A stretch of 64,000 nucleotides of DNA, taken from contig NC_092564.1 of NCBI RefSeq assembly GCF_037975245.1, positions 17,471,484 through 17,535,483 of the forward strand, read 5' to 3'. The position numbers were made by a program, and so were the translations under genes. This DNA is from Apostichopus japonicus (Eukaryota; Echinodermata; Holothuroidea; Aspidochirotida; Stichopodidae). Position 1 is the stretch's first letter. Each line of letters starts with the position of its first letter. The notes beneath the pieces are model-generated. The model did not search any database, had not been told where the DNA came from, and was given only the letters and a program-made list of their open reading frames with translations. This document shows positions 1,589 through 63,565 of this stretch, piece after piece.

Positions 1589-2146
1589 GGCCGGCTGTCA
1601 AGCCAAGCAGACAGAGCAGCAGTGCTCGGCACACATGGGTGGGAATGGGGTGTACAATGGGATGTACAATGGGATGATGATGGGGACATATATACAGTAT
1701 GATGAACTGGGCAGCTACTTGGCCTTGTGAAGTAAGTTATTTGCTCAGCACACACGGGTGGGAATGGGGTGTACAGTGGGATGATGATGGGGACATGATA
1801 TGATGAACTGGGCAGCTACTTGTCCTTGTGAAGTATGTAATTTGCTCAGCACACACGGGTGGGAATGGGGGGTACAATGGGATGATAATGGGAACATATA
1901 TGATGAACTGGGCAGCTAATTGTCCTTGTAAAGTATGTAATTTGCTCAGCACACACGGGTGGGAATGGGGGGTACAATGGGATGATGATGGGAACATATA
2001 TGATGAACTGGGCAGCTACTTGTCCTTGTGAAGTATGTAATTTGCTCAGCACACACGGGTGGGAATGGGGTGTACAATGGGATGATGATGGGGACATATA
2101 TATGAATATGATGAATGGGGGGAGCTGCTACTTGTCCTTGTGAAGA
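1589..2146 (+). repeat. Five-copy tandem array, ~100-bp unit, with splice-like signals
   Basis: Five copies of a unit of about 100 bp (starting near 1625, 1743, 1846, 1945 and 2045). The left copy is the most different and ends in AAGTAAGTT, a good 5' splice site; later copies have AAGTATGTAA at the same place. Each later copy also has TTTGCTCAG, an acceptor-like end, just before CACACACGGG. One frame of the left copy reads HMGGNGVYNGMYNG and would leave the phase required by the GLI exon at 3340, but it meets an in-frame TGA one base before the donor. I therefore do not call it a coding exon. It could be a 5' untranslated exon or a decayed exon. Confidence 0.75.
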
Positions 2147-2639
2147 ATGTTTTAAATTTGTGCATTTGTGTTGAGTCGTTTTATATATTTGTATCCCAAC
2201 TACAGGGGTGTGTATATCGGTATCGTTACCAGGATATTAAAAGTAGCGTCCGCGGGACGCAACGTTTTAAACATATTTGCCTCCGCTCAGAAAAACTTGC
2301 GTCCATACAGTCCTCCATGAAAACATGCATGCACTTTAAAACACTTCTACAGGAACGCATAGTACTTGATAATGACCCCTGACAAAACATTGGCTTGTGC
2401 GCAATGGAAGCCTACAGTAGGTCCATAATGTGCACGAAAATCAAATCAACTGATCATGATTAAAGCTGTAAATAGTATACCACAAAAAAATTACTGCCAA
2501 ATTCAGAAGCAGGAAATTTTGCCGTCGGTTCACAAAAATCATGAAAATATTTTATACAAAATAAAGATTGGAGCCTTCCAAACTGCTATGCAAACTTTGA
2601 ACACTAATTTATTGCCTGTATTATACCATAATTATACCT
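2147..2639. other. Intronic or intergenic, nothing recognised
   Basis: No exon, RNA gene or repeat could be supported in this stretch. Confidence 0.4.
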
Positions 2640-3330
2640 GGGTTAGAGTCGTTGACAGAAAAAACAAAAATGTGAATCTTACTATTCAGTTGAGCTTTGA
2701 GGGCTTGGCTTTGTCTAAAGTGTGTGGACTTGCTTTGATGGTACATAAAAATCATCCTAATTAAATTCATGGTTGCCTGGAATATTCATGTATTTTTTCA
2801 CCATATATTTATTCATGCATTCAAGTCCTTGACAGAAAAAAATGTAATATGAATCTTACTATTTGGCTGAGCTTCAAGGGCTTGGCTTTGTCTACAGTGT
2901 GGACTTGCTTTGGTTGTACATAAAAATCATGCTAATTAAATTCATTATTGCATGGAATTTTCATGTCTTTTTTTCACCATATATTATTTATTCCTGTGTT
3001 GAAGTCATTGACAGAAAAAAATGAATGTGAATCTTACTATTCAGTTGAGCTTCAAGGACTTGGCTTTGTCTACAGTGTGAACTTGCTAATATGGTACATA
3101 AAAATCATGCTAATTTATTCATTGCTGCTTGGAATATTCATGTATATATTTATTCCTGTGTTAAAGTCATTGACAGCCAAAAAATGAATGTAAATCTCAC
3201 TATTCAGTTGAGCTTCAAGGACTTGGCTTCGTCTATAGTGTGGACTTGCTTTTGTGGTACATCAAAAAAATTTGCTAATTTATTCATGGTTTCATGGAAT
3301 ATTCATGTCTGTTTTCACCATATTATATTC
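2640..3330 (+). repeat. Four-copy tandem repeat abutting a GLI 3' splice site
   Basis: Four diverged copies of a 160-180 bp unit begin near 2651, 2829, 3007 and 3170, recognisable by TTGACAGAAAAAA followed by GAATCTTACTATTCAGTTGAG and GGACTTGGC. The last unit runs directly into the polypyrimidine tract and CAG acceptor of the GLI exon at 3340. Inner units carry ATTATTTATTCCTGTGTTGAAG at the equivalent place, similar to the true acceptor region. Confidence 0.75.
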
Positions 3331-3339
3331 TTCCTGCAG

Positions 3340-22564
<19,225 letters not shown>

Positions 22565-30606: not shown

Positions 30607-30608
30607 TA

Positions 30609-30846: not shown

Positions 30847-30930
<84 letters not shown>

Positions 30931-37079: not shown

Positions 37080-37147
<68 letters not shown>

Positions 37148-40100: not shown

Positions 40101-43054
40101 TATTAGATAACCTCTATGTCCCGATTAACCGGTGACAGCTGTAAATCACCGGTTTTGTCGATCAACGTGGTAAATTATAATCATAACATTATGAGTATAA
40201 CCTTTGTAAATTCCTTGAAATAAAGTGCCATGTCGTATGTTCTTCGTCTTAACACACAGGTGATTCTTGCAAATGGTGCGAAGCTTGTCACTGTCGACTT
40301 AATGGCTCCAAATGGTATAGTTCAAGAGTTGCAAAAGCCATTGTGGCCTCAGGTCGTGAACAACATAACAGAATTAATATACAAGCACAAAGCATTGACG
40401 AATTTTACCAGCTTGCTCAAGAAATCTGGTGTTGACTTAACAGGTAAGACGAAGTATACCTCGGATTATGCAAATTTATGCACAGGGATGACTCATGTAG
40501 TGGAAGGGATGTGTACGGAAGCGTAGAAGGGACATGGTGATGAAAGAGAAACAAACTCGTCAAAATGACAAAATTCAGAAAATTGACGTTTTGCCGAGTT
40601 TAACAACTTTTTGAAAATTGACGTTTGCCGAGATACAACAAGTCGTCAAAATGACAAAATTTTGAAAATTGCGTTTTGACTAGATACAACAACTCAAAAC
40701 GTCAATTTTCAGATTTTTGTCATTTTGACGACTTGTCTTATCTCGACAAAACGTCAATTTTGAAAAAAAAATTATTTTGACGACTTGTCTTATCTCGACA
40801 AAACCTAAATTTTCAAAATTTTGTCATTTTGACGACTTGTTGTATCTCGACAAAACGTCAAGTTTCAGATTTTTGTCATTTTGACGACTTGTTGTATCTC
40901 GGCAAAACGTAAAAATTCAGATTTTGTCATTTTGACGACTTGTTGTATCTCGGCAAAACGTCAATTTTCAGAATTTTGTCATTTTGACGACTTGTTTGTA
41001 TCTCGGCAAAACGTCAATTTTCAGAATTTTGTCATTTTGATGAGTAATTGCATCTCGGCAAATTTAATAATTTAGTCGTTGTGACGAGTTGTTAAACTCG
41101 GCAAACGTCAATTTTCTGAATTTTGTCAATTTTACGAGTTTGTTTCTCTTTCATCACCATGTCCCTTCTACGTTTCCGTAGATGGGGGATAGGTCGGGTG
41201 ATTTGAAGTAATGAAAACAAATTTAACTGAAAAGTGTGAATACAATTGATTAACTAGAATAACTGTATTTGTATACAAACACGTGTCTTTGTATAGTGCA
41301 TGGTGAAAGTCAACGTTAGTTAGTCGTTCATATTCAATGGGGGGGGGGGGGGGTGCAATGTGTCTTTGTTACTGCAACCCTTTTGAAGTTTTTAATTCCG
41401 GTCACGAAGGAGGAAGTTCGGCGTTTGGTCACTTAACGTAGACCAGAGCTAGGCTATAGTACGTAATGTTTATAAACAGGACTCCAGCTAGCATGAGTCT
41501 GCAATATTATAATTAAATAAATGAGGACTAACACCATCAAAACCAAGCCCCAAAAATGATTTTCTTCTCCCTGAAGTATACGGTAATTACTTGATTATCA
41601 TATCTTCATATTTTAAAGGCACAGGACCGTTTACCGTTTTTGTTCCCTCCAACGAGGCCTTTAAAGTTTATTCAGGGGACACAGGGGAGAAGATGGTTAA
41701 CTATCACGTGGTCGATGGGACTTACTATTCAGCCGGTTTGAGCAATAAACAGGAACTTCCAACACATCTGAGAACATTCCTCGGAGATAAAAAAGTGACA
41801 ATTCTCATTGACAATGGTAAGTGAAACAATTAAAAGAAGACACACAGAGAAAGCGGGAATGGTGAAAAGTGGGTAGGTGGGAAGGGATGTGGGAGAACAA
41901 CTTACATCTTGTCTCCCTGATATTGGTGTGTTGGAATATTTTGAAGACAACGTTTCAAACCTGATCCACTACGTAGTTCCGGTTAGGATACTGGAGTTGT
42001 TTATACTTTAAAGACAAGAGGGAGTTGAATGTGTATATGTGGAGAGGGGCGGAGGAGGGGGGGGGGTGGGAGGGGGTTGGTGTAGGGTGGAGATAGTGGT
42101 AAGTTGGGCCTTCTGGAAGTTTGTTCTATAATGTTGTAATAGCGAAGTTTGCGTGGTGTAGTGTCATCTATAAGGACAGCTCTAAGAACAGTAGAAAGGC
42201 AAGTTCTAATTCTTTGTGACAATCACATTGGCATCGCAAAGGAGAAATAGTTTGAACGCCAATAATGCATAGTGTATACGATTCAATTAACAATATAACG
42301 TTGAACCAGGGAGTTTGATTGAGAAACGTGTCGAATCTGGCTATATCTAGGAGTTGCATAAGAAGTTGTGTAGTTTTAGTAATGGTCACGTGCAACAAAT
42401 TGTGTGTACCCTACAAGGATATTGAACCTGCTTGGACTATTTTGCTATCAATGTTAGAGGTGGAGGCCATTAGAATCAATCGCGTGGAGCGCAGTGAATT
42501 TTTGTACCCCATTCCGCGGGATCGCAGCACGTATAAGGATATTGATAGGATACTACGTACCGTGTCAAAAAGAGGTGGGAATTCTTTAGCCTTCATTATA
42601 TATACAATGAAACCAGTAGAAAGCTATATCTGTCCATATGTTCAACTGTTATATTGTAGTATCATATCGCATGTAGGCCCTGTCTAAAAAACGCTAAACA
42701 CAATGAAACTTATCACATCTTTTTCCTTGCTAAAAACGTGCCGTATAAATTGGGTTTTGATAATCTCGCTAACCGCAGAGAAGTTCCCCACCTCTTCCCC
42801 CACCTTTCTCCTGTATTAGTTTGTTCGCTGTAGATGCATGGAGCTGCAGTTCTTTAATTTTTTTATAGTTAGATTATGTTTGCATCGGATAATATATATA
42901 GAGCCGAATTAAAATGTGTATACATTGTTTCTTTGCAGGTCACATGTCCGTGGAGGGAAGAAAAGACACCGCTAAGGTCACTACGATGGACTTAGCAGCT
43001 TTGAACGGTGTGATACACATCTTGGATAAGGTTCTTACTCCCCCATTAATTTAG
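36444..43054 (+). CDS. Secreted two-FAS1-domain protein
   Basis: CDS = join(36444-36645, 39654-39874, 40260-40443, 41619-41816, 42939-43054); all GT-AG, phases 1,0,1,1, giving 306 residues. The start ATG opens a signal peptide ([20 protein letters not shown]). Domain 1 (about 35-185): [48 protein letters not shown], then [20 protein letters not shown]. Domain 2 (about 185-305): [37 protein letters not shown] and [14 protein letters not shown]. These are the H1 and H2 boxes and YH motif of fasciclin-1 domains as in TGFBI/periostin, which mediate cell-matrix adhesion. At two domains and no transmembrane segment or GPI tail, it is shorter than the four-domain vertebrate proteins. Function beyond matrix or adhesion is unknown; several N-glycosylation sequons are present. 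Confidence 0.92.
36646..38689 (+). other. FAS1 gene intron 1, left part
   Basis: Holds a long AT microsatellite at about 37083-37192; nothing else recognised. Confidence 0.4.
38690..39552. mobile_element. hAT-like MITE, 863 bp, second subfamily
   Basis: Terminal inverted repeats CATGGGCGGCG and CGCCGCCCATG are flanked by a perfect 8-bp duplication CAAGTCAC (38682-38689 and 39553-39560). Inside, in reverse orientation, is the same core as in the 32.5-kb and 49.9-kb elements (AGCGCCACCATGAGTTGGCG, AAGCGTACAAG, GGCCGGAAACGGC). It inserted in FAS1 intron 1, ending 101 bp before exon 2. Confidence 0.85.
40514..41180. mobile_element. Foldback/TIR element with internal ~55-bp repeats
   Basis: The ends form inverted repeats of roughly 100 bp (left TACGGAAGCGTAGAAGGGAC, right GTCCCTTCTACGTTTCCGTA). 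The interior is a series of 50-60 bp units in both orientations, each with AACGTCAATTTTCAGA, TTTTGTCATTTTGACGACTT and GTATCTCGGCAA. The flanks GATGTG and GATGGG are only an imperfect target duplication. Located in FAS1 intron 3. No coding capacity. Confidence 0.8.
41181..41618 (+). other. FAS1 intron 3, right part
   Basis: 41430-41560 is an inverted copy of 34381-34500 (dispersed repeat containing GTTTATAAACATTAC and CTACGTTAAGTGAC in the opposite sense). A G run near 41340-41354. Confidence 0.5.
41817..42938 (+). other. FAS1 intron 4
   Basis: G-rich stretch near 42040-42090. An open stretch at 42319-42687 has no recognisable domain and is not called. Confidence 0.4.
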
Positions 43055-46000: not shown

Positions 46001-46561
46001 AGGCATATTTCACCTTTACCGAAAGTACCATTTAAGGTTAAAGAATCGAACACATGACCATTATCCAGTTATATGTGTTTTAATCTTATGGTGTTGTTTC
46101 TCATTATATTTTTTATAGTATTTTGGGGAAGTGTGAATTTCTAAAATATGACATCTCAAAATATAGTTCAGATAAGAATAAATTCAGATGCAACATACAA
46201 AGCCTGGGAAGTTCCATTTCCGGTGATCTGGGAGGGATATTTTGACAAAGTATTCTTGCAACGCTACGCGCCAACCCAGAGTGGCGCTCCGCTTAGTGTT
46301 TGGGACGTCCAAGTCTTCACATCTTTCAGGCCCTAGGGGCAAACCCTGCCTCCCTGAATATATAATAGTTTTCACCCTTTCTCTGGAACAATTACGGCCT
46401 TAAAGGGATCAAATTGACATGTTAGGTTAACGAGGTAACATCAAAGTAATTTTTACAACCGAAAGTTTGGATTCCATGGTCGATGACCAAATAAAAAAAG
46501 AAAGAAAAAATAGAAGAATTTCAGAACGAAAACTTGATAAATTTCTATTCTTGTATGGTCG
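43055..46561. other. Intergenic between FAS1 and sulfotransferase genes
   Basis: 44764-44855 has three tandem units of about 31 bp (GGTTCCATATTCATGA). 44943-45350 is a two-copy tandem duplication of about 215 bp starting GGCTAGTCCAACAATTTT. 45605-45645 has two adjacent palindromes (GCCAGAATTCTGGC, AGCCGGAATTCCGGCT) following CAGGGATG, reminiscent of a transposon end. 46120-46300 is a decayed element fragment sharing CTACGCGCCAAC and GTGGCGCTCCGCTTAG with the MITE core. No gene seen. Confidence 0.5.
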
Positions 46562-48954
46562 TTACCTTTGCTTCGATTTAGAATTCAAAATTTCATTTAG
46601 TTTCTTCTTTTCAATCTCAAATATTTGTTTTGCTCGTTGATATATCAAAATTTCTGGTAGTAACATCTTTTTTATTTCTGGATTGTTAATCAAATCTGTT
46701 TTCGCTTTTTTTCTTGTCTGTATTTTACTGAGTTGTGAATCCGAATTATCATACTGACCAACGTTGTAATCGAATTTATTGCAATATTTAAAGAAAGGTA
46801 ACTTATATGCGACCTGGAGCATTCTCAATGTAGTAGAAAAATCTTCCATCAAGCCAACCACAGAGAAATGTTTGTCGAGATTAGAAACAACAGACTTAAC
46901 AAAGCTACGATTTTGGCTTAAAACGTAGGCTTCTGATGCTAACGGTGAATAGTCAATTGCACAATTCCAACTTTCTGACCTGGTACAATCGATATCTGTG
47001 AAGAACTCGTTCCAGAGGATACTTTTAGTACTTAAAGCCCACTCCGTGATGGTATGTGTTCTACAGTCTGGTATACCTGGAATGGTCTGGTTGAGTTCGA
47101 TGCAATAATAATAGTTAGATACCATCCTGTCGTACGGTTCTCGTAAAATAACAAACGTTGAACATTTCCTATCGCCGATTATACCGTGTATCAGATCGCA
47201 GAATCCAAAGCTGTAGTCACCCATAAACAGAGATGTACTATTCAAGATGCGAAAGTCACCGTTGAGGATATCCTGGGTGACTTGAATCCTTCCTTCAGTA
47301 TGAAGCAAGAAAGGTTCGTCTCGAACAAGATTAGACGCCACCATATTCATACATTCCTTCATGGTTGTTCCGCCGCTTTTGGGAACGTGCATAAAATTGA
47401 TGAATGCATCCTTATATTGTGGCCGTTTCGACGAATACATGAAATAATTCGGTAGGTTATTACAACTGTTGGTGTGGTGAAAAACATGGCAATTTATGAG
47501 ACGGTTATCTGACGGTTTTGAAGTTTGATTTCTGTCCTGCGAGGCACTCGACATACGATGGTGCGGCACATGAGCTCTGTGTAGGATAAATCAAAATATT
47601 GCTTAAAAATAAAATTTACCCGGAATAGTAATAACCTTTGACCTCCACCGAAGATTGTAGGACTTTTTACACGTCATAAGGCCAATCTATGACAATCATG
47701 GTTTGGAATAAATATTCTTGATGTATGGGATTTTTAAGATCTCCAAAGTAAATCTCATATGACCCTTGACCCTCACCAATCACAATAAAGATCTTGCTTC
47801 CTTATATACCAAGTATAATATTTGACAACATTCCCTTTCGCGACAGTGCTATTACGTATTTCAATCTTATTGTGGTGTTGACGTCTGGTGATATCAAAAT
47901 AAGGACCAGCAATGTATACTATATCATTTGCTATGATAGTGTGTGGATCGGGGTAGTTAGAGGAGTGTGAGGGGAGGGAGGTTAGTAGGAGTAAGGGCGA
48001 GAAAGAAAGAAAAAAGAAGCGAGAAGTTCTCTTGCATTAGTTATTATTAAAAAGTAGACAAACTGGTTCGTTATTCATTGATCTCACTCATGCACTGAAC
48101 TGAATCATAAATCGCTATATATGAGGAGAATCGGAAGTGCAGGAAATGGTCGGAAGTGAAGGGAAGAAATGGAACGGAACGAGTAGCATGTGGTTCCAAT
48201 ATATGGTATCGATCAACCATTCGTTGGCAAAATATAACTGTCTTTCAGAAAAAAAGAAAGGGAAATAAATAATGACAATTTTCAATCCCAAATTAAAATC
48301 GAGAGATCCGAGGCAAAATATTGGGAGAAATTTGGCAAAATCCAACTTAAACAAGATATATGGTTATAAAATGTAATTTAATATAAACACATATTTTTTA
48401 TATGTAAACGTCAGCTCTGCAATGGTATAGGTTATATATGTAAACGTGATATAGTTGCACGAAACGTTAGCGTTGTGGCATGCGTATTTTATATAATTAT
48501 TGACCGAAACGAAGCGAATTTCTCCACGTGAAAATATACGCGCGACCCATTTTTGATCGCAATTTACAAAGAAAAAAAAATCAAACTTTGCCGGGAGATA
48601 TCTCCCGGCAAAGTTTGGTAGTCTATATAGACTACCAATTTGGGATTTTGTCCCTCTTGTTGGTACATTTACCCACCCATTGGGGTGGGTGGGGTGGGGG
48701 ACTGGGGAGGGGAGGTATGCCGTATCCATTTAAAACGGTTGATGGAGAATGAGGCTCCTCATTCATTCATTCACTGTACAAATTGGTATACCTTACTCTA
48801 TCGTTAAGTTATACATGTACCACTAAGATATATACCACCGCTGGGGATTTATTTAGTTTACAACATCACAAGAAACTTCCACATGTAGGAACCTCTAATC
48901 AAAACAGATAATGTTTAATATGGTTATGATGAAACTGGGGCCTGATACCCCCTC

Positions 48955-49035
<81 letters not shown>

Positions 49036-49185
49036 TAGGGCCTATACTTACAGCTGTGGGTAATTGGTACCCAACGTCGTGGTGGAGCGACCGTCAGTTA
49101 AAGTCCGAAACAACAGGATTAAAGCAGCAGATACCACGACGACTAGTGCAAACGACATGCCAGAGTTCTTCGTAACTGGATTCAT
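46562..49185 (-). CDS. Type II Golgi-type sulfotransferase, paralog 1
   Basis: Two exons: 49052-49185 (start, donor GTAAGT) and 46562-47576 (acceptor CCTACACAG); intron phase 2; 382 residues. Exon 1 encodes a short cytoplasmic tail and a signal anchor (SFALVVVVSAALILLF, about 11-26). The catalytic exon has FMHVPKSGGTT (110-116, the 5'-phosphosulfate loop that binds PAPS) and ILREPYDRMVSNYYYC (around 190-198, the 3'-phosphate site), as in Sulfotransfer_2-type carbohydrate sulfotransferases (heparan 2-O/6-O and uronyl-type). It should transfer sulfate from PAPS to a glycan in the Golgi; the acceptor cannot be told from sequence. A basic C-terminal helix follows. The centre is nearly identical to paralog 2 while both ends are diverged. 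Confidence 0.9.
47577..49051 (-). other. Sulfotransferase 1 intron with double palindrome
   Basis: Contains two overlapping perfect palindromes at 48582-48617 (36 bp, centre GAGATATCTC) and 48615-48638 (24 bp, centre TCTATATAGA), and an AT microsatellite at about 48957-49032. Nothing else recognised. Confidence 0.7.
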
Positions 49186-49927
49186 CGTTCTTCTTTTCCG
49201 TCCCTCAACTCAAGTGTAGGCTACAATCGATGCCTAACAGCCTGCATGTACTTGCGGTAACGTTACATATCCTTATGTATCATTTATACTGTTGAAGTAC
49301 ACCATGCTGTTACCATGCAAATCATACACTCATGAGCCTACACACATACACACAGGTTGTATCCTACAGTCGTGGGTAAAGAGATTATCCAAGTCTTGAA
49401 AGAAGCTTGTACCACTCACTCGAAATCACTGCTGTTAATACTGTATAATGCATGTGCGGATGTATAGACTAATATTTGTAAACCGTTATATGCCTATTAT
49501 AATGTGGCAGGCAATACAGGACTACAACAACAGGTTATCACAAGAAAGGATTTAGATTGTCGTGACGATCCTGCAGAGCAGAAGCACGAGATTCTGGAAC
49601 GGGTTTCCTGTCTTGTGGTGACTGTTGGTTCTATCTTCACTGAAGCGTGAAGCTATACGGTGTGAGGCCTGTATATACAGCAATTCGGACGTCTTGGCAA
49701 ATGAGTCTTATTTTGCGTTTTGTTCATTAGCTATAGGGATACTGTTTACATTAAGATCCGAACAATCACCAGTATACGTTAGAAACAAGAACAGGTTGGT
49801 GGCACAACCTGAGTTCCGTTTTGCACAATGGTAGAGATGTTTGCCAAAGGCACAACGCCCTTTTACACTTTAGTGACGTCTAAAGAAACAATGTCTTTCA
49901 GTAGCAATCGTTGATCTTTCCTTCACT
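49186..49927. other. Upstream of sulfotransferase 1, nothing recognised
   Basis: Presumably contains the promoter of the minus-strand gene, but I cannot mark elements. Confidence 0.35.
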
Positions 49928-50573
49928 CAAGGGCGGCGGAACCGGGGGGCACAGGGGGCACGTGCCCCCCACTTTTCCTCAGGGTTAAAAATGTGCCCTT
50001 TTTCTACATAAAAATTGAGGTGTCTCAAGTTAGCAAGAGGCCAGGGAACCAGAATGAACACTCGGGAAGGGCCGTTTCCGGCCATCTGAGGGGTTTGTAA
50101 AACCAAAATTTTTATTGTACGCTCCGCGCCAACCGATGGTGGCGCTCCGCTCAGATAGTCGTGCATACAACTTTGCAAATCCTGGCTACGCCCCTGACTT
50201 TTAATGAATTTATGTGGGTCAAAACTCAAAGCTATTTCGAATGGAAACAATTTGTTAAGATATTAACAAGAAATAAACTCTAATTCGGAAGATTCCTACA
50301 TTAGCAACTAGCATGATTTCGCCTCATTTGTCTCAATAGAAAACTTGTTCCTTGTTTCCCAATTTGCACATTGGATATTGCAGTGCTAGTATGCATATTT
50401 TCCTTGGGGGGGGGGGGGGGCGTTGATGGTGTGACGTGTATACGCAAATAAGATAATACAATAAGAGTTATAAAGGGTACTAAATATCAGGCTACATCAG
50501 TCCAATCGAATTTCTGCAAAGTGCCCTTTGATGTCGGTGCCCCCCCAGATTAAAAGTGCTTCCGCCGCCCTTG
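49928..50573. mobile_element. hAT-like MITE, copy 2
   Basis: 646 bp; CAAGGGCGGCGGAA at the left, TTCCGCCGCCCTTG at the right, and a perfect 8-bp duplication CCTTCACT (49920-49927 and 50574-50581). High similarity to 32533-33137 over most of its length (GGCCAGGGAACCAGAATGAA, CGCTCCGCGCCAACCGATG, GGAAGATTCCTACATTAGCA). It carries about 60 bp near the left end (around 49964-50026) that copy 1 lacks. No coding capacity. Confidence 0.9.
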
Positions 50574-52968
50574 CCTTCACTGCCTTGCTATCGTGAGATC
50601 TACCGAGGGAGGGTGGGGGGGGGGCGGTTCAATTGGACGGATACAGGAAAGGTCAACGTGGACTATTCGAGAGTTTGTAGGAAAGAAGTTGGTAGTAAAT
50701 GGTGTTTTGTCCGTCTGAAACACATATCTCACATGTCGGGGGTGGGTGGGTTGTATAGGTAAGAAGTTTGTAGGAAATGGTTTTGTCCGTCTTAAAACAC
50801 ATAAATCACACGTTGGGTTGGGGGAGGGGGGGCTGGGATGGGTTGGTGGGAGGTGGACTATATTTCTGTTTCTTCTTTTCTAACTAGGTATTCACTCCAG
50901 GGTATAGTTTATGCTTGGCCATTAAGTTGAATTCTTAGCATGATTGCATAAACCAAAAGTCAAATGACCAGTTTTCCTTTTCATATTCCTCATTGTCCGT
51001 CGCTGGAAATTTCAACTTTTTTCTTCAAAATTGCTGGAAGAACATATTCGAAAGTTTGAGTTAAAATGTCATAATTTGGATATAAAATGCCGAAATTTCG
51101 ATACGAACAACACACGTTTATAGATTAGGATATTAGTTGTATATAAGTCAGGAAGGAGCATACACATGCCCCCCCCCCCTGTTCCCCTCTTCCTATACGC
51201 CTATGCGAACGTACGTAACAGTTAACATGATTGCATTATTATACTGTATTTATGATAAGGTTCTGGTATGTTGAACTAATTTAAAAGTTTTCAAAGGGTT
51301 CGCTATGGCCTATATATATATATATTTGTTAGAACGACAGTTACCAGATGTTCAAATTGAATATGATAATATAATTCTGTTTTTGTGTGTATGACAAGTA
51401 ACCTTTTGTGCTACTGTGACAACTACTCCGCCTTGGGACAAACTGTCTTATTTTCCTTGTTTTACTGCAATTAAAAAAAAAACTAAATGTTATGTTTAAA
51501 TATACGCTATATGCCTGATGTTAACCAATCGTTTCCTATACACAGGACATTATTATTTAATGTGGTACTAAAAGGAACTTATCAAAGAACTTTGAAAGTA
51601 TGAATAATTTGCTACATATTGCAAAATGTGACAACAAGCCCCGGTCCCCACGTCCCGCCTTAGCTACTACTTGGTACTCGGAACCTTCAGCATTTAGATG
51701 TAGGCCTACTTGACACTCTGATAAATGTATTCAAATATATAATGCTGGTAAATTGTAATCACTATTTAGGCAACTTTATTGAAAATACAGCACTTAACAA
51801 CACAGTCGAAATCAGTGAGCTCGGAACACTACTCCGTCTGGTGCACACAAGTAGATGTAGTCAACTTACACTTCGGAGTAGAAGTATTGCTATAGAGCTG
51901 CCAGGAAGGACCGATTTTATATCCATCACAAGACAACAACCAACTTACTCGTCTTAGTAGGCCAAGCTCACGGTTATACGATATGAAAACTTATACGTGA
52001 AATATTCAACAATTTATATCATGTATCCATATATTAGTAATTCAAAAGGCTTTAGGCTATATAGGCCTTTATAGGCTCTACTTATAATACTGTTCATCAA
52101 ATATTTAGTTAATGTGAAAAGTTATTAGCGCAGTCTCCGGTCAGGGATTTCGAATCCTTTGCATCCGAAACCCAGATCCGATACCGAGCCAATTTCGAAA
52201 CCGAGGGCCCAGTCTGGTTTCGAGACCGACAATTATGTATCGTCATGTAAAGTAGAACACTGTCTTCACTAATTACGGCTGCAGATAAGCTGCTGTATGC
52301 CTGGGCAACACATATACGGCTTATAAGAAGTCTACCGAATTATAGAACAAGAAAGCTGGCTAACAACCAAATGATATATACCGTATATGAGTCATCCAAG
52401 ATTGACCCTGGGCACGAAACACCAACCTAAGTTACAGGTACACAGATACACACAGGCAACTAATCATATCTGTACTCACCAAACTAGGCCTGAGAGTCCA
52501 ACTGATATATTGGTTTGCTTTTCGTCAGTCTTATCTAGGTTCACTTCGGTAATGTCACTTCACACGATACCCAACAAAACGCACGCTCATGCATAACTTG
52601 ACATTTTTTAAGGGAGGGGAGGAGGGGAGGGGAGGGGAGGGGAGGGGATTGAGGCCATGAGTGATTGAGGGGGGGGGGATGGAATGAGATATGTAAAATA
52701 TATGTACGTTAGTAACACGTTACCAACATATCGATCATATAACATTGCGAAAACAAAGTAATGTGTTCTTTAAGCGACATAACTCTCATAACTGGAAAAT
52801 CATTTTCAAGAAAAAAGAAATGTCCATCTTGTAAGTTTCTAAAATAAAGCATACATTTATTTACTTTCTTACAAATGTTTGGTATGAATGGCATCCACGA
52901 GTGGAATGGCTAGCTTAGAACCTGCAAACTCGATAAGATGTTGATTCATGCCTTTAAATATACTAACT
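50574..52968. other. Intergenic between the two sulfotransferase genes
   Basis: G-rich runs near 50820-50850 and 52610-52680; CCTATACGCCTATG near 51191 looks like a solitary foldback-element end. TTTATT at 52856-52861 (AATAAA on the minus strand), about 110 bp past the paralog 2 stop, is a plausible polyadenylation signal. Confidence 0.45.
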
Positions 52969-54393
52969 CTATAAACTTTCAAGTTCTTTCTTTTGAATTT
53001 CAAATATTTCTTTAGCTCGATTGTACATCAATATTTCCGGATATAATAATTCTCGAACGGCAGGGTGTGCCATTAGCTGATTCTTTGCAATAGATTTGAG
53101 AAGTTTCTTATTCATCGTCTTTTTGTATGTTCCAGCATTATAATCTAACGTTTGACAGGTGTCGAAAAATGGCAGGCCGTAGGCTTGCTGCAACATTTTT
53201 AGTGACGTTTCCATATCTTCCGTTAGACCAACCACAGAGAAATGTTTATCGAGACCAGCAACAAGAGCCTCAACGTAAGTGGTGTTTTGACTGAGAAGAT
53301 AAGACTCTTCCAATGTTCTGTAGTTCATTTTACATTCCCAATTCACATTTTTGGTACAATCGATATCTGTGAAGATTTCGTTCCAGAGGATACTTTTAGT
53401 CCTTAACGCCCACTCCGTGATGGTATGTGTTCTACAGTCTGGTATACCTGGAATTGTCTGGTTGAGTTCGATGCAATAATAATAGTTAGATACCATCCTG
53501 TCGTACGGTTCTCGTAAAATAACAAACGTTGAACATTTCTTATCGCCGATGATACCGTGTATCAGATCGCAGAATCCAAAGCTGTAGTCACCCATAAACA
53601 GAGATGTACTATTCAAGATACGAAAGTCACCGTTGAGGATATCCTGGGTGACTTGAATCCTGCCTTCAGTGTGAAGCAAGAAAGGTTCGTCTCGAACAAG
53701 ATTAGACGCCACCATATTCATACATTCCTTCATGGTTGTACCGCCGCTTTTGGGAACGTGCATAAAATTGATAACAGTACTCTTGAATTGTGGCCGTTTC
53801 GAGGAATACATAAAATAATTTGGTAGGTTGTTACAACTGTTCGAACGGTGCAGGACATGGCAATCCAATGCTATGTCATCTTGATAAGATGTCAAGTGAG
53901 GATGACCATCCCTGCCCTGTAGCATTCTATGAACTGACGAACTGGCTCTGTGAAAATAAAGATAGAAATAACATGTGTTTTGAGATGTTTGCACGACTGG
54001 TGCACATTTAGACCCATATATAAGAGCGCACGGCATTAAGGCCCATAGCTAGACTGGAGCAAGGGCCCGGGACCGTGACCACCACATCCATGCCGACTAA
54101 TGTGACATCCTCCCCCTAACCCCTCTCCACCCATTTGCCAAAAGTGTTCAACACGTGATCCGCAATTAAGATGTATAACCTACATTATATTTTGATAAAG
54201 CAATGAGTGAGTGTACTCTACAGAGCTATTAATAAAAGACAATAAATGTTTTTGTTTCTTACCTCTGTTGCAAGTTTATTTTAGTTGTTGTATACTGGTT
54301 GACCAGTAACATCACTAATAAAAATGAAATAATAGAAACTTGTCCAGTGATCCACAACAACCCATGCGTAGTCAAACTATTAAAAACCGCCAT
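52969..54393 (-). CDS. Type II Golgi-type sulfotransferase, paralog 2
   Basis: Exons 54263-54393 (donor GTAAGA) and 52969-53947 (acceptor TTATTTTCACAG); intron phase 2 as in paralog 1; 369 residues with this first exon. Signal anchor: QVSIISFLLVMLLVN (about 18-32). I chose ATG 54393 because AAAATGG is a good context and gives a short cytoplasmic tail; the frame stays open to an ATG at 54483. PAPS-binding motifs are FMHVPKSGGTT (PKSGGTT at 109-115) and ILREPYDRMVSN. The region from there to TDIDCT is almost identical to paralog 1, while the N-terminal stem and the C-terminal third differ at about half of positions. An alternative anchor exon exists at 55561-55685. Confidence 0.9.
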
Positions 54394-54954
54394 TTTTTGT
54401 CTCGATTTTCCCAATGTAAAATGGAATCCAACCCAATATTTAATCGTTTCTTCAATAACCATGATGATAAATGGAGTTTGCAAGACAAACGGGTCTGGTT
54501 TCCTTAGTATAGAACCGGGTCAGTGAATTTCTTTATAATCAATGTAGAATTATTCACAGACGTTGTGGTCACCCTTTTACTCGTGACGTCTGTTTTACCA
54601 TGATGACTGTTTGTTGTACCTTTCACTGGCGTGACTAAATACACATTCATAATCTATCACTGGAAATATAGTTAACCACCATATAGTCTTTCTCTGTTAG
54701 ATGTAACTCTATCTCGCTCTCTCTCTCTATTAGCATTCATATATATGTTGTCTTTGGTATTGAATACTCTACACAGCTGCTCGAGTTCTTTACTTAGATT
54801 CATACACCTTCTCTAAGATGATTTGCGTGGGTCTGTTGACACCGACGTATCCACAACCCACTTCGCAAATTATCCATGAGTAATGATCTTATTTGTGAAG
54901 TAGATATATCGACGATATTTTTTCATATTGAATGTCTAATATGTTGAATGTATG
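54394..54954 (-). other. Between the two candidate first exons of sulfotransferase 2
   Basis: A short CT run near 54712-54729; otherwise nothing recognised. Confidence 0.35.
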
Positions 54955-55269
54955 CAGGGACGTGCTCAGGAATATTTGAGTGCCGGGCAGATTGTGCGGT
55001 AGTGTGAGCCACACCCTGGGAGAGGGATCTCATGGGTGGGGTACCCCCTCCCCACTGGACACATTTTGCACATGAAGTATGCTTAGGTGGTGCTATGTTT
55101 CCTATTCTGTGCCATGTATTCACCCATATTTTGATAACATTGGTAACATTTGTTAACATATCATCAAAAAAGTGCCGGGCGGAAATGGTTAAAATACTGT
55201 TTGTGCTGTGCGGCATTCAGAACTGCTCGGCGCAGCCGCCCGGTGCCGCCCAGTGTGAGCACATCCATG
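54955..55269. mobile_element. Probable short hAT-like MITE
   Basis: Ends CAGGGACGTGCTCA and TGAGCACATCCATG are imperfect inverted repeats, with GTGCCGGGC blocks further in on both arms. A 6-bp direct repeat TGTATG abuts both ends. 315 bp, no coding capacity. It lies between the two candidate first exons of sulfotransferase 2. Confidence 0.5.
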
Positions 55270-55560
55270 TGTATGTATAGGTCAATTATGCTGGAGTAGA
55301 CAGGGAAGGTCTACTTCCCAATTTCTTTGAATGAAATATGAGAGAGAATGTATAGCAGGTGATTTGTTGGGCAGGGACGGGGTCGGGAGGGGTGGCTGGC
55401 TGATAGTCGCCAAAGAAGAAGGATAAACAAGAGTAACATATTGGAAGTACCTTACCACAACCTTATTATGTTATATACAGACCATCGCGTCGTATATAAG
55501 ATAAATACAAGACATGTGATCACATACTAATATAAAATAAACGTAAAAAAGATTACTTAC

Positions 55561-55685
55561 ATTTGTTGTACAAATACCTCGTTAATTGGACGTTGGTTGG
55601 TAAATAAAACGCCTATTGCAAACAGAATAATCACAAATATTTCGCCGACGACCCACCTGGTTGCACCTGTGCGGTTCTCGGCCAT
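55561..55685 (-). CDS. Alternative signal-anchor exon for sulfotransferase 2 (or orphan)
   Basis: ATG at 55685 opens 41 codons plus two bases, ending at a consensus donor GTAAGTAATC. The product MAENRTGATRWVVGEIFVII... has a charged N-terminus and one hydrophobic segment (EIFVIILFAIGVLF), the same type II anchor design as the first exons at 54263-54393 and 49052-49185. It leaves the same phase 2, so splicing to 53947 gives an intact frame (367 residues). Either an alternative promoter/first exon of paralog 2 or the remnant of a third tandem copy whose catalytic exon is gone. Confidence 0.6.
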
Positions 55686-57721
55686 TTCCAATTAAGCGAG
55701 TCAACATTTACGTAAATAGTTGCCCGATGTTCACTGTTCAAATGGCACGTTCGAAGAGAAAGCGAGAGAGAGTGAGGGATACTGAGAGAAGCTAATGGAA
55801 GGTTATGAAATAGGTGTATACACATACAACCCCGTGTTATCTTATAAACGTTAGAAAGGGTTTCGTTTATATCCGCTTAATTATCTTCCACACAGACAGA
55901 TGGACCATCGCCTCTCTGCGATAAGGTATACTTCCTGTGTGCCATTCATCCTGATAGTCTGAGCCGAATAAGAGAATTAGAATAGTTTTTACATCCGCCT
56001 GAAAGGTTTGAAGATTGTCGAGAAATAGACGTAGTGTCTTTCATTGGACTGTAAATGTTGGCTGGGAAGGGGGGGGGGGGAAGACTGATTTAGGTCGCAT
56101 GGACCTCTTTTGAAGGGTAAGAGGCAGATGATAAATTTATAAAGTGGGAGCTAAGGAAGGGAGGTCCTGGGGTCGTTGATCCCGACTCGCATGAAGGGAC
56201 ATGTGGTCCCCCCAACTTCCGAAAAAGCTAATTTTAGACGTCGATGATGCATTTTATGCAAGTATATTTATGACACAAAGTAGATATATCAGTGTAGGTA
56301 TAAATTAAGACTGTGATAATAAATGCTGATAAAATAGAGAGGAAATCCCCCGACTGAACCCTTTCTTCCCCAGACTGACGAAGGAGGTGGGCCATGCCAC
56401 CCACATCCCACCCCAAACCCCCACCACCCCACCCCACTACACCACACGTTGGCATAATTTCAGTCATCATCATTCCTTTTGATGGTTGAATGTTGTAGAG
56501 GATGAAATAAACTATGGTTTAACAATCAGGAGGTTTAAAGGTGATTTAAGGCCTTTTTAGAAATTCCTGGTTGGAACAGGAAGATTTGACAAGGAGAGCT
56601 GGCTGATAGGTTGGGTAGTACTATGCTAAATGTCACCTCTTCTAGCTTGAAATCTAAATCAGTGGTCATTGTGGTTAACTTTGCATGTGCCGAGATAGTC
56701 CATAAGCGATAACATATCAGTTACAGAAGCATACGTAGGCCTAGGTGAATCCATTAAGGCTTTGCAATACCAAGGGTCAATGTTGTTACGACATATGCTC
56801 ATGACCAAGGATCTCCCTTTGGTTGCAAATTCCATGTCACCGAACTTTTGATGACCCACAATACCCATTAAACTTCTTTTTTGTTCAATTAGAGTGATAT
56901 TCGGCTAAGATAAGAAAATTACACAACAATCAGGACATGGGCACATGTCCGTTTTTGGCTTTAATTGTTGGTAAAGATACAATCTTGGTGTTACGTAATA
57001 GAATAGGCAATTATTTCTGCAGTATTTGATATGACAGCTATAATATGTGCAAAGAATAGAGGCTTCGTTCACAATTAACCAGTATAATGTGTGGTTCTAT
57101 AGATATATAAGCATAACTTAACTGAACCCGTTGTTGCAAGTGCATTACACCAAACATTAATGTTGCGTCAAGGAAGGGCAAGCTCTTTTATCTTTCTGTT
57201 CTGAGTCCCTCAATTAAAGAGGGAAGGAGTGGGGGGGGGGGTTCACCCCTCACACCCCTAGACCTGCGTCTGACCACGGAGGAGTGGTCAAATTCTTCCA
57301 CGGGTGAACTTAAACATTCCTAGACCGAGAGTAAGTTCCCCGACAGACGAATGGCGATACAAGGTTGGGTCCTTACCCCACTCCCCATCCTTTGTGCGCG
57401 GCACTGTTCTGGGACCGCCATTAAAAATTCCCATGCAATGGACGATAGTTTTCCTCAGCATCTGACCACTTTCTCAAATAATATAACAGGTTCAGACATC
57501 TTTGTCGTCACTGCAGTGCAGCTATTAATGGTAAACGAAGTTGTTTCGAAACCAAACCCGGTCCCCAATTCGCAAACCAGAAATACCAAGTCCACAGAAG
57601 ACTCCGCTCAACAACAGTGTTCAGCAGCAATTTAGGTCAAAAGAAACTGGTACCTGTCGAGGTTTTAAACGTTGCGGACTTGCGGATCGAACACTCTAAA
57701 AGCAGGTGGCTGCTGCGGAAC
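55686..57721. other. Intergenic, nothing recognised
   Basis: G and C runs near 56060-56080, 56395-56445 and 57230-57245. An open minus-strand stretch at 56659-56868 has no known domain and is not called. Confidence 0.4.
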
Positions 57722-58381
57722 TATGGAACGCCATGTTAACATTTATTCAATTATTAGAGATATCTTCAATTAATTTCAGATATCTCAAATTAAATTAAAT
57801 ATATCTCTAGTTATTGAAGATATCTTCAATTCAATTTGAGATATCAGAAATTGAATTTTCGATATCTTGAAGTTTATTTAAGATATCTCTAACTGTTTTT
57901 CAGATATCAAGAAATAAATTAAAGATATCATAAAAGGAAACATTATTTAAGATATCTCGAATTGAATTAGAGATATCCAAAATTGAATGCGAGATATCAA
58001 GAATTCGATTTAGAGATATCCAAAATTGAATTCGAGATTATCAAGAAAAGAATTCGAGATATCCAAACTTGAATTCAAGATATCAAGAATTCGAATTAGA
58101 GATATCCAAAATTGAATTAGAGATATCAATAATTCGAATTAGAGATATCTGGAATACAATTAGAGATATCTGGAATACAATTAGAGATATCCAAAATTCA
58201 ATTAGAGATATCAATAATTCAAATTAGAGATATCCAAAATCGAATTCTTGATATCTCGAATTCAATTTCTGATATCTCAAATATGTTTCAATTAGAGATA
58301 TCTGAAAATGAATTAGAGATATCTGGGAATGAATTAGAGACATCTGTAATTATTGAATAAATGTTAAAATGGCGTTCCATA
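57722..58381. mobile_element. TIR element packed with GATATC palindrome repeats
   Basis: Terminal inverted repeats of about 35 bp (left TATGGAACGCCATGTTAAC followed by ATTTATTCAAT; right is the complement, ending GGCGTTCCATA). CGGAAC directly flanks both ends (57716-57721 and 58382-58387), a likely 6-bp target duplication. The interior of about 580 bp is a tandem series of roughly thirty units of 17-21 bp alternating AGATATC with AATTGAATT-like spacers, so every unit is nearly self-complementary. It ends 84 bp before the KTI12 start codon. Confidence 0.85.
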
Positions 58382-58465
58382 CGGAACCGCTTCTAGCTCT
58401 GAATGAGACATTTGTCATTGCCGAATGCTAGTTGAAATATATCGTTGCTACAATATTTCCATACA

Positions 58466-61400
58466 ATGCCGCTAGTAGTGTTATGCGGATTCCCGTCTTC
58501 AGGGAAAACTAAAAGAACAAATGAAATAAAGAAACAACTTGAAAAGAATGACAAGAAGGTCATCGTAGTTAGTGAGCACAATTTTGGAATCGATAAGAAT
58601 TTGGTATACGCTGGTGAGTGAAAAACTATTTCAACAGTCATGTGCCTAGTAAGTTATCCTTAGGACTAGTTTTGCGACACAGTCAATGCGCAGAAGATAG
58701 TGCACGATACAGTATAGTGCACAATAGACTCGTGCTAGTTTGGATATGTACTTGTTATTGTTGCACTGTACACATTTGGCCGCGTCCTAATTTTACGATG
58801 ACTGTCCAAATGGAAAATAAGGAATATGTCTCGGGCTGGTCTAAGAATCAGTTTTCATCTATGCAAGCAGGGATGAAATATCTTAACATGTTAAAAATAT
58901 TGTAGGAAACATTTCATCACATGGTTTAATGCAAAATGGGACTATTGCTATCTTGCTGTTTAGAAAGTTTAGACCAACTGATGTTTTTCACCTTCAAAAG
59001 TTTGATGTCTGAGCGTAAGAAGTTTGTTAATTTTCATGTTTCTTTTTTCTTCAGACTCAAAGAAAGAAGTGAGCTTGCGTGGTGATTTAAGATCTGGTGT
59101 CTTAAGGTAGGAACAGAAATTCTGCCAGAAAATCCAAGCTTGCCCAATATAATACTGTAAACAACTTCTAAACATGACGTAAATTCCCTTATTATTATCT
59201 TATTGGAAAGTAGATTTGAAATGATAATTATTTCAGTGGTCACATGAAACAAAAGAAGTGGGAGAGGTTGATATTGAGGTGATGTGGAGGGGAGTTGAAT
59301 TCCAATGTTGAAATGAAGGGAATTTGTTTTTATGCTCAGGTAGACATCAACAACATCATGATCAATTATTTGAAGGAAATTTATATGAAAAACACTGACA
59401 AGTAGACACTTATATTTAAAAGGACGAAAATGATATATTATCATTGCATCATTCTCTGTAGCAAACGCAAGAAATATTCTCATGTTAAATGTGGCCAGAA
59501 ATTACTAATATATTTGCCAGATGTTCTCTGTTTTTTCTTTAGTGTTCTGTGGTGAGTATTGTTATGACAAAAATAAACTACAATTCGAAAGACAAGAAGA
59601 CAATAAGATCAGTTTTAAACATTTTCACCATTTACAGGGAAATATCTAAAGAGACTGTGGTCATCCTTGATTCCCTTAATTATATAAAAGGTGAGTTCTT
59701 TGCCTTTTCTTGGAATCTGATACATTATTTCCTGTAGCCCATAATAACTTCATGGTTATTCATGATGTTGTGCAAAAATGTACATGGAGGTTTGATTTCA
59801 AAAGAGGTTATTGACTATGTACAGTCTCTGCAACACATGTTTGATACGAGCTGTTCTTCATCATTGCGTCACTGAAACAGTTACACACAGTGAATTACAG
59901 TTATAAAAGCTTCATTAAGAAAAAAATACTTCTCAGAAAAAAATAATGTGTGTACCAAAGAAACAGCAACACAGTACAGTATTAAGTAAATGAACAGAAA
60001 TAATGTGATATGGTCACCTGGTGCAATCCTATTCTTCATTTTTCTTGCAAATCAACTATGTTTTAAATAATTTTTTGTGTGTTTGACAGTATTTAGGGAA
60101 TTGAGTGGGTTGATTTATATATGTACTGAGGGGCAGATGAGGTTGGGAAGGGTGGAGGGTGTGTGTGCCTGTTTGGGGGGGGGGGGGTGTCAATGTATTA
60201 GTTACTGTTGCTGGAATGACAAGTTCAAGTTTTTAACCTTTCAGTAATTTTTAATATGTTTGACAGGTTTCAGATATGAGCTTTTCTGTGGTATCAAGTC
60301 AGCGCAAACGCCCCATTGTGTTGTAAGTATTACCAGTGTCTCCTCACCGTCAAAATTTGCTATTTTTGTACTTGAAAAAAAAAATGTATTAATGTTTTCC
60401 ACATTAAATATCACTCATCTATGAGCATTGAAGTTGTGTTGCAAGTTTGGTCGGTAAAATGTTTACCACACTTACGTACCGAGTGTTTCTCAAGATCAGA
60501 ATTCAGTCGTTTTTATGAGCTAATGACACTGTTCAAGATTATATTCAATAAGTTCATTTTCATTAGTCAGTTAAAAAATGATTCTGCGGGATTTTTACAG
60601 AAAAGAAAAAGTGGCTACACTGTATGTATTAGCAGCTCAGTCAATGGAAAAGTTTACCCATTAGTCAGCATTTCTTGTAAAGAATGACTTTAACCACAAA
60701 TTTCCTGTTTCTTATGTTGTAGACCAGTGGTTCTCAAAGTGGTCCCTGCCACCCCTGGGGGGCGTTTGAAAGAGTCAGGGGGGTGTTACAGGGTACACGG
60801 GTAGTAGGGGGCGTTGGCACTGATTTGGGGGTACCTGGCAATTACGACACATCACTGCAGCAATTTAGGGCACAATAACGCATCCAGGGGGTCTTGGAAC
60901 AAACAAAAAGAATTTTGTGACCCAGAATTATCCAAAAATGGTATTAGAAATTCAATAACTCCACCCCAAGGTCCAATTTCTTTCGCGTTTGGATTATATT
61001 GTAGCACAAACATCCCTTGTAACTTATAAGCGCATAGCGCCACCATTTTAACCTGTCATTTGTGGTATTCCCTGAGTTGGTCAATGATTGCAAAGTCAAG
61101 GGGAGGGGGTAGGGGGAGGGGGGCATTGGGACAGTTCAAGATGGTCGAAGGGGCGGTCGTCTAAAAATGTTTGAGAACCACTGTTGTAGACCAATACGAA
61201 CCACTTGTATCAGGTCAAGTTGTTTTTCTATACCACTTTTAATTTCTGAGAGATATGACCTTTTGAACAGGTCAGGTCCATAAGTTAACGTGGTAAGGTT
61301 TTCAGATGCAACTCAAACTCAAGGATTAATGATCTTGAATGTCATCCAAGAATTTAATATGAATATATTATAATTAATAATTAAGTGATCATTATTAATA

Positions 61401-63565
61401 ATTAAGTGATCATGCCAGAGAGTTAACATATTTTAATGTGAATATCTTGAAAAACTGAATAGCTAGACACATTATTACATCAGCACTCAAATGTTTCTCG
61501 TTTCTGGAGCTGTGACATATCAAGACTAAAATTCTGCTTTTAATAATGTCATCTTGTTTCAAATTTCTATAAATTATGAAACCCTGCCTGGGCTAGCTAA
61601 TGTACTACATTGATGTAGTACAGTCAATGCGTAAAAGCTAAGACTTAGTGTTTAGAACCCTAGAGACTTCTGCCATCCCAAATTGCATTCCTACTTGTTC
61701 CTTGAACACTTTTATGTTAATATCTCAAGAAATTGCCCCTACCAAGAGTTTTAGGACAGTGAATTCAAACAAGACATAGATTGATCTTACTGTACCTCAA
61801 ATGATACACCTTTGATCTGTTAATGATCTAATCCAAATTTTGAGGGAGATAGAGACAAGAAAGAAAGACAAAATTAACCCCTCCCCCTCCCACCTCCCAT
61901 TCCCCCTCTCACTCCCCTCCCCAATTTTTAACCAGTCTGATGAATTTGTAATGATAAAGACCTTTGTGTAAACTTTGCTTCAGGCCCCCCTAATACTGGT
62001 TTATAATTCTCCACCTCATTCTTGTTCTTATTTACAGGTCCACTGTGATGTGAGCCATGATGATGCACGAGAATGGAATGAAGGAAGACCAGAGGGTGAA
62101 CGATACAACCAAGATGTGTAAGATCATTACCATTCAGGGAATCATTAAGTGTCAAATTTTGTGCAGCACTTTTTTGAAGGTTTTGAAGTTTGCCTTTTAC
62201 ATAAAAACTTTATCGTGTCCCCTGTCTACAAACTGTATCTGCATCTTTGCACTTGTACAGCAACTTCCTAGTATTTTGTGATGCGATGCGACTTGAATCA
62301 AATTATTCCCTGGGATTTGTAATCTCTAGTTGTCATGGCACTAGCTTTTTTTGACATAGAAAGAATCATTTCACTGGAAAGAAAGTCACTGTATCATTTT
62401 CCTTCTAAAGGTTATGTTCATATCTAGTATCCAAATTCCATTTAAGTGAAGAAATTTTGCTTAACAGATCTCCTTTGCAATACCTGCAGTGCATTTTCTT
62501 AGGGAATTTTCTCTTTGCTGGAAATATTTGTTAAGAAAGAAAATGAAACATGATTCAGATGCAAGAGTATACTGTTTCCCTTTTTCTTTTTCTCTGTCAC
62601 TTGTATCTCTTTATGATTGCATTATTTTATTCCAAATACGGTGACAGGTTTGATGCGTTAGTAATGAGGTTCGAACCTCCTGTGGGCAAGAATCGTTGGG
62701 ACAAGCCTTTATTCTCGCTGAAGAAAGACGAAAATGTCGACTTTGAGGCTATCAGTTCAGCGCTGTTCAATACCAAACCTCCTGCTAGAAATATGTCCAC
62801 TGTATCGGTAAGTACACGCATGCTGTGTATAAAAGACGGGTGGGTGGCTTTATGTCCACTGTAAAAAGAAAGATGAAAATGTCGACTTTGATGCTCTCAG
62901 TTCAGCGCTGTTCAATACCAAACCTCCTGCTAGAAATATGTCCACTGTATCGGTAAGTACAGTACACACATGGTGTGTATTAAAGTCAGGGGTGGGTGGC
63001 CATATGTCCATTGTAAAAAGAAAGATGAAAATGTCAACTTTGATGCTATCAGTTCAGCGCTGTTCAATACCAAACCTCCTGCTAGAAATATGTCCACTGT
63101 ATCGGTAAGTACAGTACACACATGGTGTGTATTAAAGTCAGGGGTGGGTGGCCATATGTCCATTGTAAAAAGAAAGATGAAAATGTCAACTTTGATGCTA
63201 TCAGTTCAGCGCTGTTCAATACCAAACCTCCTGCTAGAAATATGTCCACTGTATCGGTGAGTACAGTACACGCATGGTGTGTATTAAAGACAGGGGTCAG
63301 GGGTGGGTGGCCATATGTCCACTGTAAAAAGAAAGATGAAAATGTCATCTTTGATGCTCTCAGTTCAGCGCTGTTCAATACCAAACCTGCTGCTAGAAAT
63401 ATGTCCACTGTTTCAGTTAGTACACGTATGGTGTGTATGTAAGACAAAAGAATAGCACATTACCATCAAAATGATTATCAAAAATTTCCTCTTTGTTTTC
63501 AGCAACCTCTCTCTTCAACTAACTTTCTACATGAGCTTGATAAGAAGACCCAACAGATAGTTACG
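58466..63565 (+). CDS. KTI12: KTI12, Elongator-associated tRNA-modification factor (3' end missing)
   Basis: CDS = join(58466-58613, 59055-59106, 59638-59690, 60267-60322, 62038-62117, 62648-62807, 63503-63565, continuing beyond the window); GT-AG throughout with continuous phase. The protein opens MPLVVLCGFPSSGKTKRTNE with the P-loop GFPSSGKT, then VIVVSEHNFG, DSKKEVSLRGDLRSGV, VVILDSLNYIKGFRYELFC (Walker B region), EWNEGRPEGERYNQDVF, MRFEPPVGKNRWDKPLFSL and SALFNTKPPARNMSTVS. These match KTI12 family blocks in order. KTI12 is a tRNA-binding ATPase that works with Elongator in wobble uridine modification. The last donor seen, GTAGCT, is weak. Exon six has seeded a tandem array in the next intron, and a palindrome-rich transposon sits at the promoter. 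Confidence 0.93.
58614..60724 (+). other. KTI12 introns 1-3 and start of intron 4
   Basis: Between the short KTI12 exons I see no further gene or repeat family; a G run near 60174-60187. Confidence 0.4.
60725..61183. mobile_element. hAT MITE with 8-bp target duplication
   Basis: Terminal inverted repeats CAGTGGTTCTCAAA and TTTGAGAACCACTG are the classic hAT-type end. TTGTAGAC is duplicated exactly at 60717-60724 and 61184-61191. 459 bp, G-rich, no coding capacity. Inserted in KTI12 intron 4. Confidence 0.95.
61184..62037 (+). other. KTI12 intron 4 remainder
   Basis: A short direct repeat near 61366-61412 (ATTAATAATTAAGTGATCAT twice) and a C-rich tract near 61878-61922. Nothing else recognised. 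Confidence 0.4.
62808..63420 (+). repeat. Four-copy ~152-bp array copying KTI12 exon 6 end plus 5' splice site
   Basis: The intron after exon 6 starts with four extra copies of the exon end (AAAGAYGAAAATGTC to AATATGTCCACTGTATCG, still readable as KKDENVNFDAISSALFNTKP PARNMSTVS) each followed by a donor: GTAAGT at 62953, GTAAGT at 63105, GTGAGT at 63257, and a weakened GTTAGT at 63416; the founder donor is at 62808. Periods are 145, 152, 152 and 159 bp. Reading through the founder donor meets TAA within 19 codons. Between copies lies a conserved CATGGTGTGTATTAAAG / GGGTGGGTGGCCATATGTCC spacer without a clear acceptor. Confidence 0.93.

Follow-up and report, generated by a model that had tools for sequence, protein, structure and literature searches.

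Tandem arrays that start within an exon and continue past its 5′ splice site into the following intron occur in several unrelated genes of the sea cucumber Apostichopus japonicus. The arrays are real, general in this genome and of a known kind, the mirages of amphioxus, here apparently newly seen in an echinoderm. We observed directly the arrays, the exon ends that they repeat, the extra splice donors that they carry, their recurrence in unrelated genes and the many minisatellites in genic DNA. The best reading, to which we give a probability of about 75%, is that these mirages are minisatellites founded by tandem duplication across a donor, with frequent formation followed by a filter imposed by splicing.

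Arrays across 5′ splice sites in Gli and KTI12

We analysed one stretch of 64,000 nucleotides (the window) of an A. japonicus genome that comprises 671,581,487 bases in 35 contigs. The features concerned are listed below in window coordinates, apart from the first.

17471484-17535483 of NC_092564.1, plus strand: the window, from Apostichopus japonicus, an echinoderm (sea cucumber)
3340 to about 22564, plus strand: Gli gene (tblastn, Pfam)
15236-15385, plus strand: Gli zinc-finger exon, HINNEH... (tblastn with echinoderm Gli proteins, 88-90% identity; translation)
15321-16875, plus strand: array A (TRF, 15321-16845, 71 bp × 21.6; unit cut and alignment, donor list)
18372-18662, plus strand: Gli exon, KPYVC...QQERIPNIK (homology over the first two thirds, to about 18575; 3′ end by frame and phase)
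18639-19008, plus strand: array B (TRF, 84 bp × 4.3; unit list, sequence)
58466 to beyond 63565, plus strand: KTI12 gene (tblastn, Pfam)
62648-62807, plus strand: KTI12 exon, FDALVMRF...ARNMSTVS (Pfam KTI12; tblastn with holothurian KTI12 proteins)
62721-63424, plus strand: array C (TRF, 152 bp × 4.6; alignment, donors and junction match)
1656-2106, strand not assigned: array D (TRF, 100 bp × 4.4; alignment)
2806-3308, strand not assigned: array E, intronic (TRF; sequence, alignment)

An earlier note on this DNA had described three clear arrays at exon junctions. TRF, together with homology or reading frame, bears this out: arrays A, B and C are real; each begins within exon sequence and runs over the 5′ splice site of that exon. 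The Gli exon at 15236-15385 is authentic, and its final 65 bp form copy 1 of array A, whose 22 units (67-71 bp each) consist of the 65-bp exon end followed by GTAAGT. The first such donor stands at 15386. Judged by pattern, GT is present at the aligned position in 19 of the 22 units and a perfect GTAAGT in 15; GT is gone from copies 20 and 21, the last two full units. We dropped a reading of array A as coding zinc-finger repeats, because the 71-bp period shifts the frame, which closes at a stop 22 nt beyond the first donor.

The KTI12 exon ends in the same manner, its final 87 bp being copy 1 of array C, with a GTAAGT donor at 62808. Array C has five units, the complete ones made of the 87-bp exon end and 58-72 bp of intron, and GT is found at the donor of all five. 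At the unit junction (62851) lie 13 bp, TATGTCCACTGTA, identical to the exon end. Random 28-mers matched the KTI12 exon so well in 0 of 5,000 draws from outside array C and in 36 of 5,000 with the array included. The 13-bp match suggests template switching in the founding event.

The second Gli exon was given its 3′ end from a 97-codon open frame, a match in phase 0 with the acceptor that precedes 19607, and an AAG/GTATGT donor; this first donor of array B, GTATGT at 18663, is in phase 0. Array B has five units, with GTATGT in copies 1-4 and lost from copy 5. Each unit joins 20-21 nt of exon end to 63-69 nt closing with a C-rich tract and CAG, so that acceptor-like ends precede copies 2-5. Copies 2-4 resemble mini-exons, with candidate lengths of 20, 21 and 21 nt and 63-69 nt between them. 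The reading frame remains open for 391 nt beyond the first donor because the period is 84 bp.

Two further arrays, at 1.6-2.1 and 2.65-3.33 kb, had been put forward as possible cases. Tandem arrays do exist there (D and E), but in neither is a repeated exon boundary demonstrated, so we dropped both. Units of array D contain donor-like GTAAGT/GTATGT and acceptor-like TTTGCTCAG; no exon is demonstrated, because none of four echinoderm Gli proteins aligns at 1656-2106 (tblastn). Array E, with three copies of about 162-199 bp each by manual cut, ends about 30 bp upstream of the Gli acceptor at 3339/3340, and the Gli exon that follows is not repeated (sequence, alignment).

New cases in exons sampled blind to repeats

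Kinase exons were picked by Pfam match, blind to repeats, and comprise 65 of the 134 matches listed (131 of 1,182 candidates scored). Intronless, long and left-over matches were left out, eight full-length ones serving for a profile only. Through this profile, built here, we added 51 neighbouring kinase exons chosen by colinearity, leaving out tandem-copy rows of loci L014 and L015 and weak, non-colinear rows. The kinase sample thus holds 116 exons in 60 loci and 274 kb. A kinesin sample contributed 40 donors of the 126 matches listed, viewed in 281-bp windows that can miss long periods; 70 myosin matches were left out. Donors total 156 (kinase and kinesin) and acceptors 116 (kinase only, kinesin acceptors being left out), and among the predicted splice sites some score poorly (for example L012 4017, L011 7509, L085 and L101). 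Myosin-head exon matches were also seen in very long open frames, of 1109 aa (G000:C17:29991693-29994788, minus strand) and 747 aa (G000:C15:19153353-19155557, plus strand). Frames of this length must cross introns, and they may conceal in-frame tandem arrays.

New donor-spanning arrays were found at 4 of the 156 donors (2.6%, 95% interval 0.7-6.4%), representing 3 independent genes, and acceptor-spanning arrays at 0 of the 116 kinase acceptors. Two lie in CDK11 loci (L014 and L015; 70 bp × 12 and × 11 by TRF) and one in a PKG-1-like gene (L051; 42 bp, at least 17 copies, extending off the locus). The fourth, in a kinesin gene (L087), is a duplication of just two copies (53 bp × 2, 98% matches). 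Kinase names come from PDB sequence matches, the first being CDK11B for L014 and L015 and cGMP-dependent protein kinase 1 for L051. Homology placed the exons of arrays A and C and of the CDK11, PKG-1-like and kinesin cases; frame and phase placed that of array B. Unit sizes are 71, 84 and 152 bp in the window and 70, 42 and 53 bp elsewhere.

Because the pattern recurs in exons chosen blind to repeats, it is general in A. japonicus, as the earlier note had proposed. The species is reported to have 30,350 genes, with 6.1 exons per gene given by a genome account (PMC5638244). Extrapolated from our four cases, a rate of a few percent would correspond to thousands of donors, and so to thousands of introns.

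Minisatellites are abundant in the same genic DNA, where 31 arrays with a period of at least 25 bp, after merging, occupy 6.3% of the 274-kb kinase sample. They also turn over fast in CDK11 introns: an array with a 59-bp unit has 33 copies at one of the two loci but 1.6 at the other, between flanks that are about 88-95% identical over their longest aligned stretches. The donor arrays of these loci have 12 and 11 units (TRF, one assembly), and several other intronic arrays differ strongly in size. Both loci lie on C11, about 3.3 Mb apart, and are related by duplication or haplotype retention.

Two arrays near donors were kept out of the counts. In L016, GTGTAGGTGTAC-like units (3276-4738) set in about 23 bp downstream of a protein kinase donor that reads GTGTAAGTGTAC; the array, which may be a mirage that consists of nothing but the donor, was treated as borderline. 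A second L014 array sets in 11 bp downstream of another donor, which itself lies outside the array.

The working donor and the survival of arrays

Past the first donor, the reading frame meets a stop after 2-55 nt in arrays A and C, the two CDK11 loci, the PKG-1-like gene and the kinesin gene, that is, in six of seven loci, array B being the exception. In the three KTI12 proteins considered (an annotated one of A. japonicus, 206 aa; one of Holothuria leucospilota; one more), the exon is joined once to the next. Together, these early stops and single joins indicate that splicing very probably works from the first donor. The extra donors of arrays A and C, and those of the arrays in the kinase and kinesin genes, are probably unused decoys.

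Under the reading that we prefer, a founding tandem duplication would run from the interior of an exon over the 5′ splice site into the intron, and the array would then expand through unequal exchange or slippage. Such duplications would occur more or less anywhere in a repeat-rich genome. One that crosses a donor would leave the first exon copy and its donor intact, with every extra copy falling in the intron, and would survive because the first donor still yields the normal exon. One that crosses an acceptor would place intact acceptors ahead of the real one, and one inside an exon would alter the protein; both would be lost because the message is spoiled. We infer that this filter, acting on random duplications, would yield the observed pattern, with no special mechanism needed. 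The arrays look like a side effect of the genome's richness in repeats, one that splicing usually tolerates. When donors are duplicated in bench work, the intron-proximal one is sometimes preferred, and where that preference holds the arrays would be harmful.

Array B may differ from the other arrays in that its units could act as micro-exons. Given its donor and acceptor signals and its open frame, it is the one candidate for new mini-exons. A tentative alternative, which we think doubtful, is that array B consists of nascent tandem micro-exons, a case of exon/intron birth by proto-splice-site duplication, which would yield Gli proteins in which short segments such as ER.P..K recur. The C-rich tract, CAG and GTATGT that flank copies 2-4 are consistent with this, as is the long open frame. 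However, copy 2, at 20 nt, would shift the frame, and the 63-69-nt spacers are short compared with an average intron of about 1.3 kb, the figure given for A. japonicus (PMC5638244, PMC10344927). Moreover, the region shows no conservation against echinoderm Gli proteins (tblastn), and the micro-exons are predicted from DNA sequence alone.

Placement of arrays relative to splice junctions

Alternatively, tandem duplication might be directed to 5′ splice sites by a mutational mechanism such as R-loop formation or replication pausing at the ends of exons. For the window we placed its 13 arrays at random over 18 donors, with the fasciclin exons left out. Arrays that span a donor and have an exonic edge numbered 3 against 0.45 expected (P = 0.0095), plain donor coverage was 3 against 1.59 (P = 0.21) and acceptor coverage 0 against 1.60, P values that are post hoc because the window had been singled out for its arrays. 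The arrays just past donors in L016, with its donor-like units, and in L014 point in the same direction. Against this, the blind kinase sample contained no excess: donor-only arrays with an exonic edge numbered 3, compared with 1.86 expected by random placement (P = 0.28), and 3 donors lay inside arrays, compared with 7.25 (P of so few, 0.043). These figures give no sign that donors are hot spots, and the claim that arrays are favoured at splice junctions is not supported among these 116 exons. Array coverage around the 65 kinase donors was likewise 3/65 at the donor versus 5-6/65 at 100-400 bp downstream. The sample is small and a mild excess at donors could be missed; we consider aimed duplication unlikely.

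Acceptors are avoided by arrays. None of the 116 in the kinase sample lay inside an array, where random placement predicts 7.24 (P = 0.0001). Arrays that have an exonic edge and span only the acceptor numbered 0 against 1.86 expected, which is not significant (P = 0.15), and wholly exonic arrays 0 against 0.38, too few expected to judge exon bodies. The difference between donors and acceptors is itself modest and only suggestive: 4/156 versus 0/116 without the window (P = 0.11), 7/174 versus 0/134 with it (P = 0.017) and 6/173 versus 0/134 when the CDK11 pair is also counted once (P = 0.031).

It had also been suggested that selection retains the extra donors, and a function in slower splicing, isoforms or U1 binding is conceivable, given that the donor is kept in most units (GTAAGT in 15/22 in A, GT in 5/5 in C and GTATGT in 4/5 in B). 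Yet it is the entire unit that is conserved and not the donor alone, as expected under homogenisation. In addition, array A has lost GT from two late copies, and outside array B the later donors lead to the early stops described above, which makes retention by selection very unlikely. An assembly artefact, in which copies were multiplied during assembly, is highly improbable: such arrays are hard to assemble, and an amphioxus mirage is described as aberrantly assembled in a draft genome (PMC3087553), but the units here carry distinct substitutions in a non-trivial order and several unrelated loci are affected, one with just two copies. A transposon origin was considered and dropped, the units being exon pieces of their own gene.

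Relation to known systems

The earlier note knew of no named system of this kind, but one has been named in amphioxus (PMC3087553). Mirages are described there as tandem duplications of exon-intron boundaries (PMC3087553, PMC3902484), in Adh3 and the globins BflGb6 and BflGb9 with units of 10-160 bp (PMC3087553) and in PGBD5, Adh and troponin C (PMC3902484). In both systems, as far as these accounts go, minisatellite-sized tandem duplications cross an exon-intron boundary, splice signals recur in many units and an authentic exon stands at one end of the array (PMC3087553, PMC3902484). We found the same here: a tandem repeat of minisatellite size, a unit across a real exon-intron boundary and a splice signal in many units. 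Whereas the amphioxus mirages are reported at both 5′ and 3′ boundaries, all seven sea cucumber loci are at donors. The duplicated 3′ boundary of BflGb6 (PMC3087553) implies that acceptor copies can be tolerated, which counts against the polarity of the proposed filter. Normal splicing is backed by RT-PCR in the amphioxus account and, in the sea cucumber, only by protein annotation. The host here is an echinoderm rather than a cephalochordate.

A minisatellite in human IFI6 (6-16) reportedly supplies several splice donors (Turri et al. 1995). It would resemble our arrays in offering a row of donors; with a 12-bp unit, in a single gene, it would differ from their 42-152-bp units with coding exon sequence.

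Array B has the anatomy required for intron gain by tandem duplication, as outlined for Rogers-type gain and for variable internal tandem repeats in human genes (PMC3087553, PMC2812944); here, by contrast, an existing intron is extended, and the units of array B are only putative exons. Amphioxus Gli is described as having two splice forms that differ at the C terminus. An earthworm metallothionein paper presents intronic minisatellites, apparently without splice-boundary copies. Among the papers listed in literature searches on echinoderms and sea cucumbers, none could be recognised from its title or abstract as a report of such arrays, which does not prove absence.

Mirages were known from amphioxus, and how widely else they occur had been left open. 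Their presence in a sea cucumber, at a rate that can be measured, would make them a general trait of genomes rich in minisatellites. A gene with a row of 2 to 22 near-identical donors, each preceded by real exon sequence, is a natural experiment on spliceosome choice among equal donors, and array B is a candidate for exon birth within Gli, a hedgehog-pathway regulator. More speculatively, and with little confidence, donor-spanning arrays at a few percent of donors could be a standing generator of splice choices that survives on the donor side only, some arrays, such as B, becoming micro-exons. If so, survival on that side would expose a rule of commitment to the first donor in splicing. Donor-spanning arrays can also lead gene annotation to false extra exons.

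Other features of the window

A 21/43/64-bp tandem array at 57753-58345 stops about 120 bp upstream of the KTI12 start codon (58466) and, at that distance, may sit in the promoter region. At the end of an open reading frame in the fasciclin region (stop at 40524-40526), 40511-41185 is a tandem array between inverted copies of about 45 bp that take in the final bases of the coding sequence, an arrangement like that of a foldback element (by eye). Two adjoining sulfotransferase genes on the minus strand (46562-47590 and 52969-54048) share about 69% identity, and in each the first coding exon is short and stands apart. Along 91% of its length, the second open reading frame matches A. japonicus BSL78_06259 at 99% identity.
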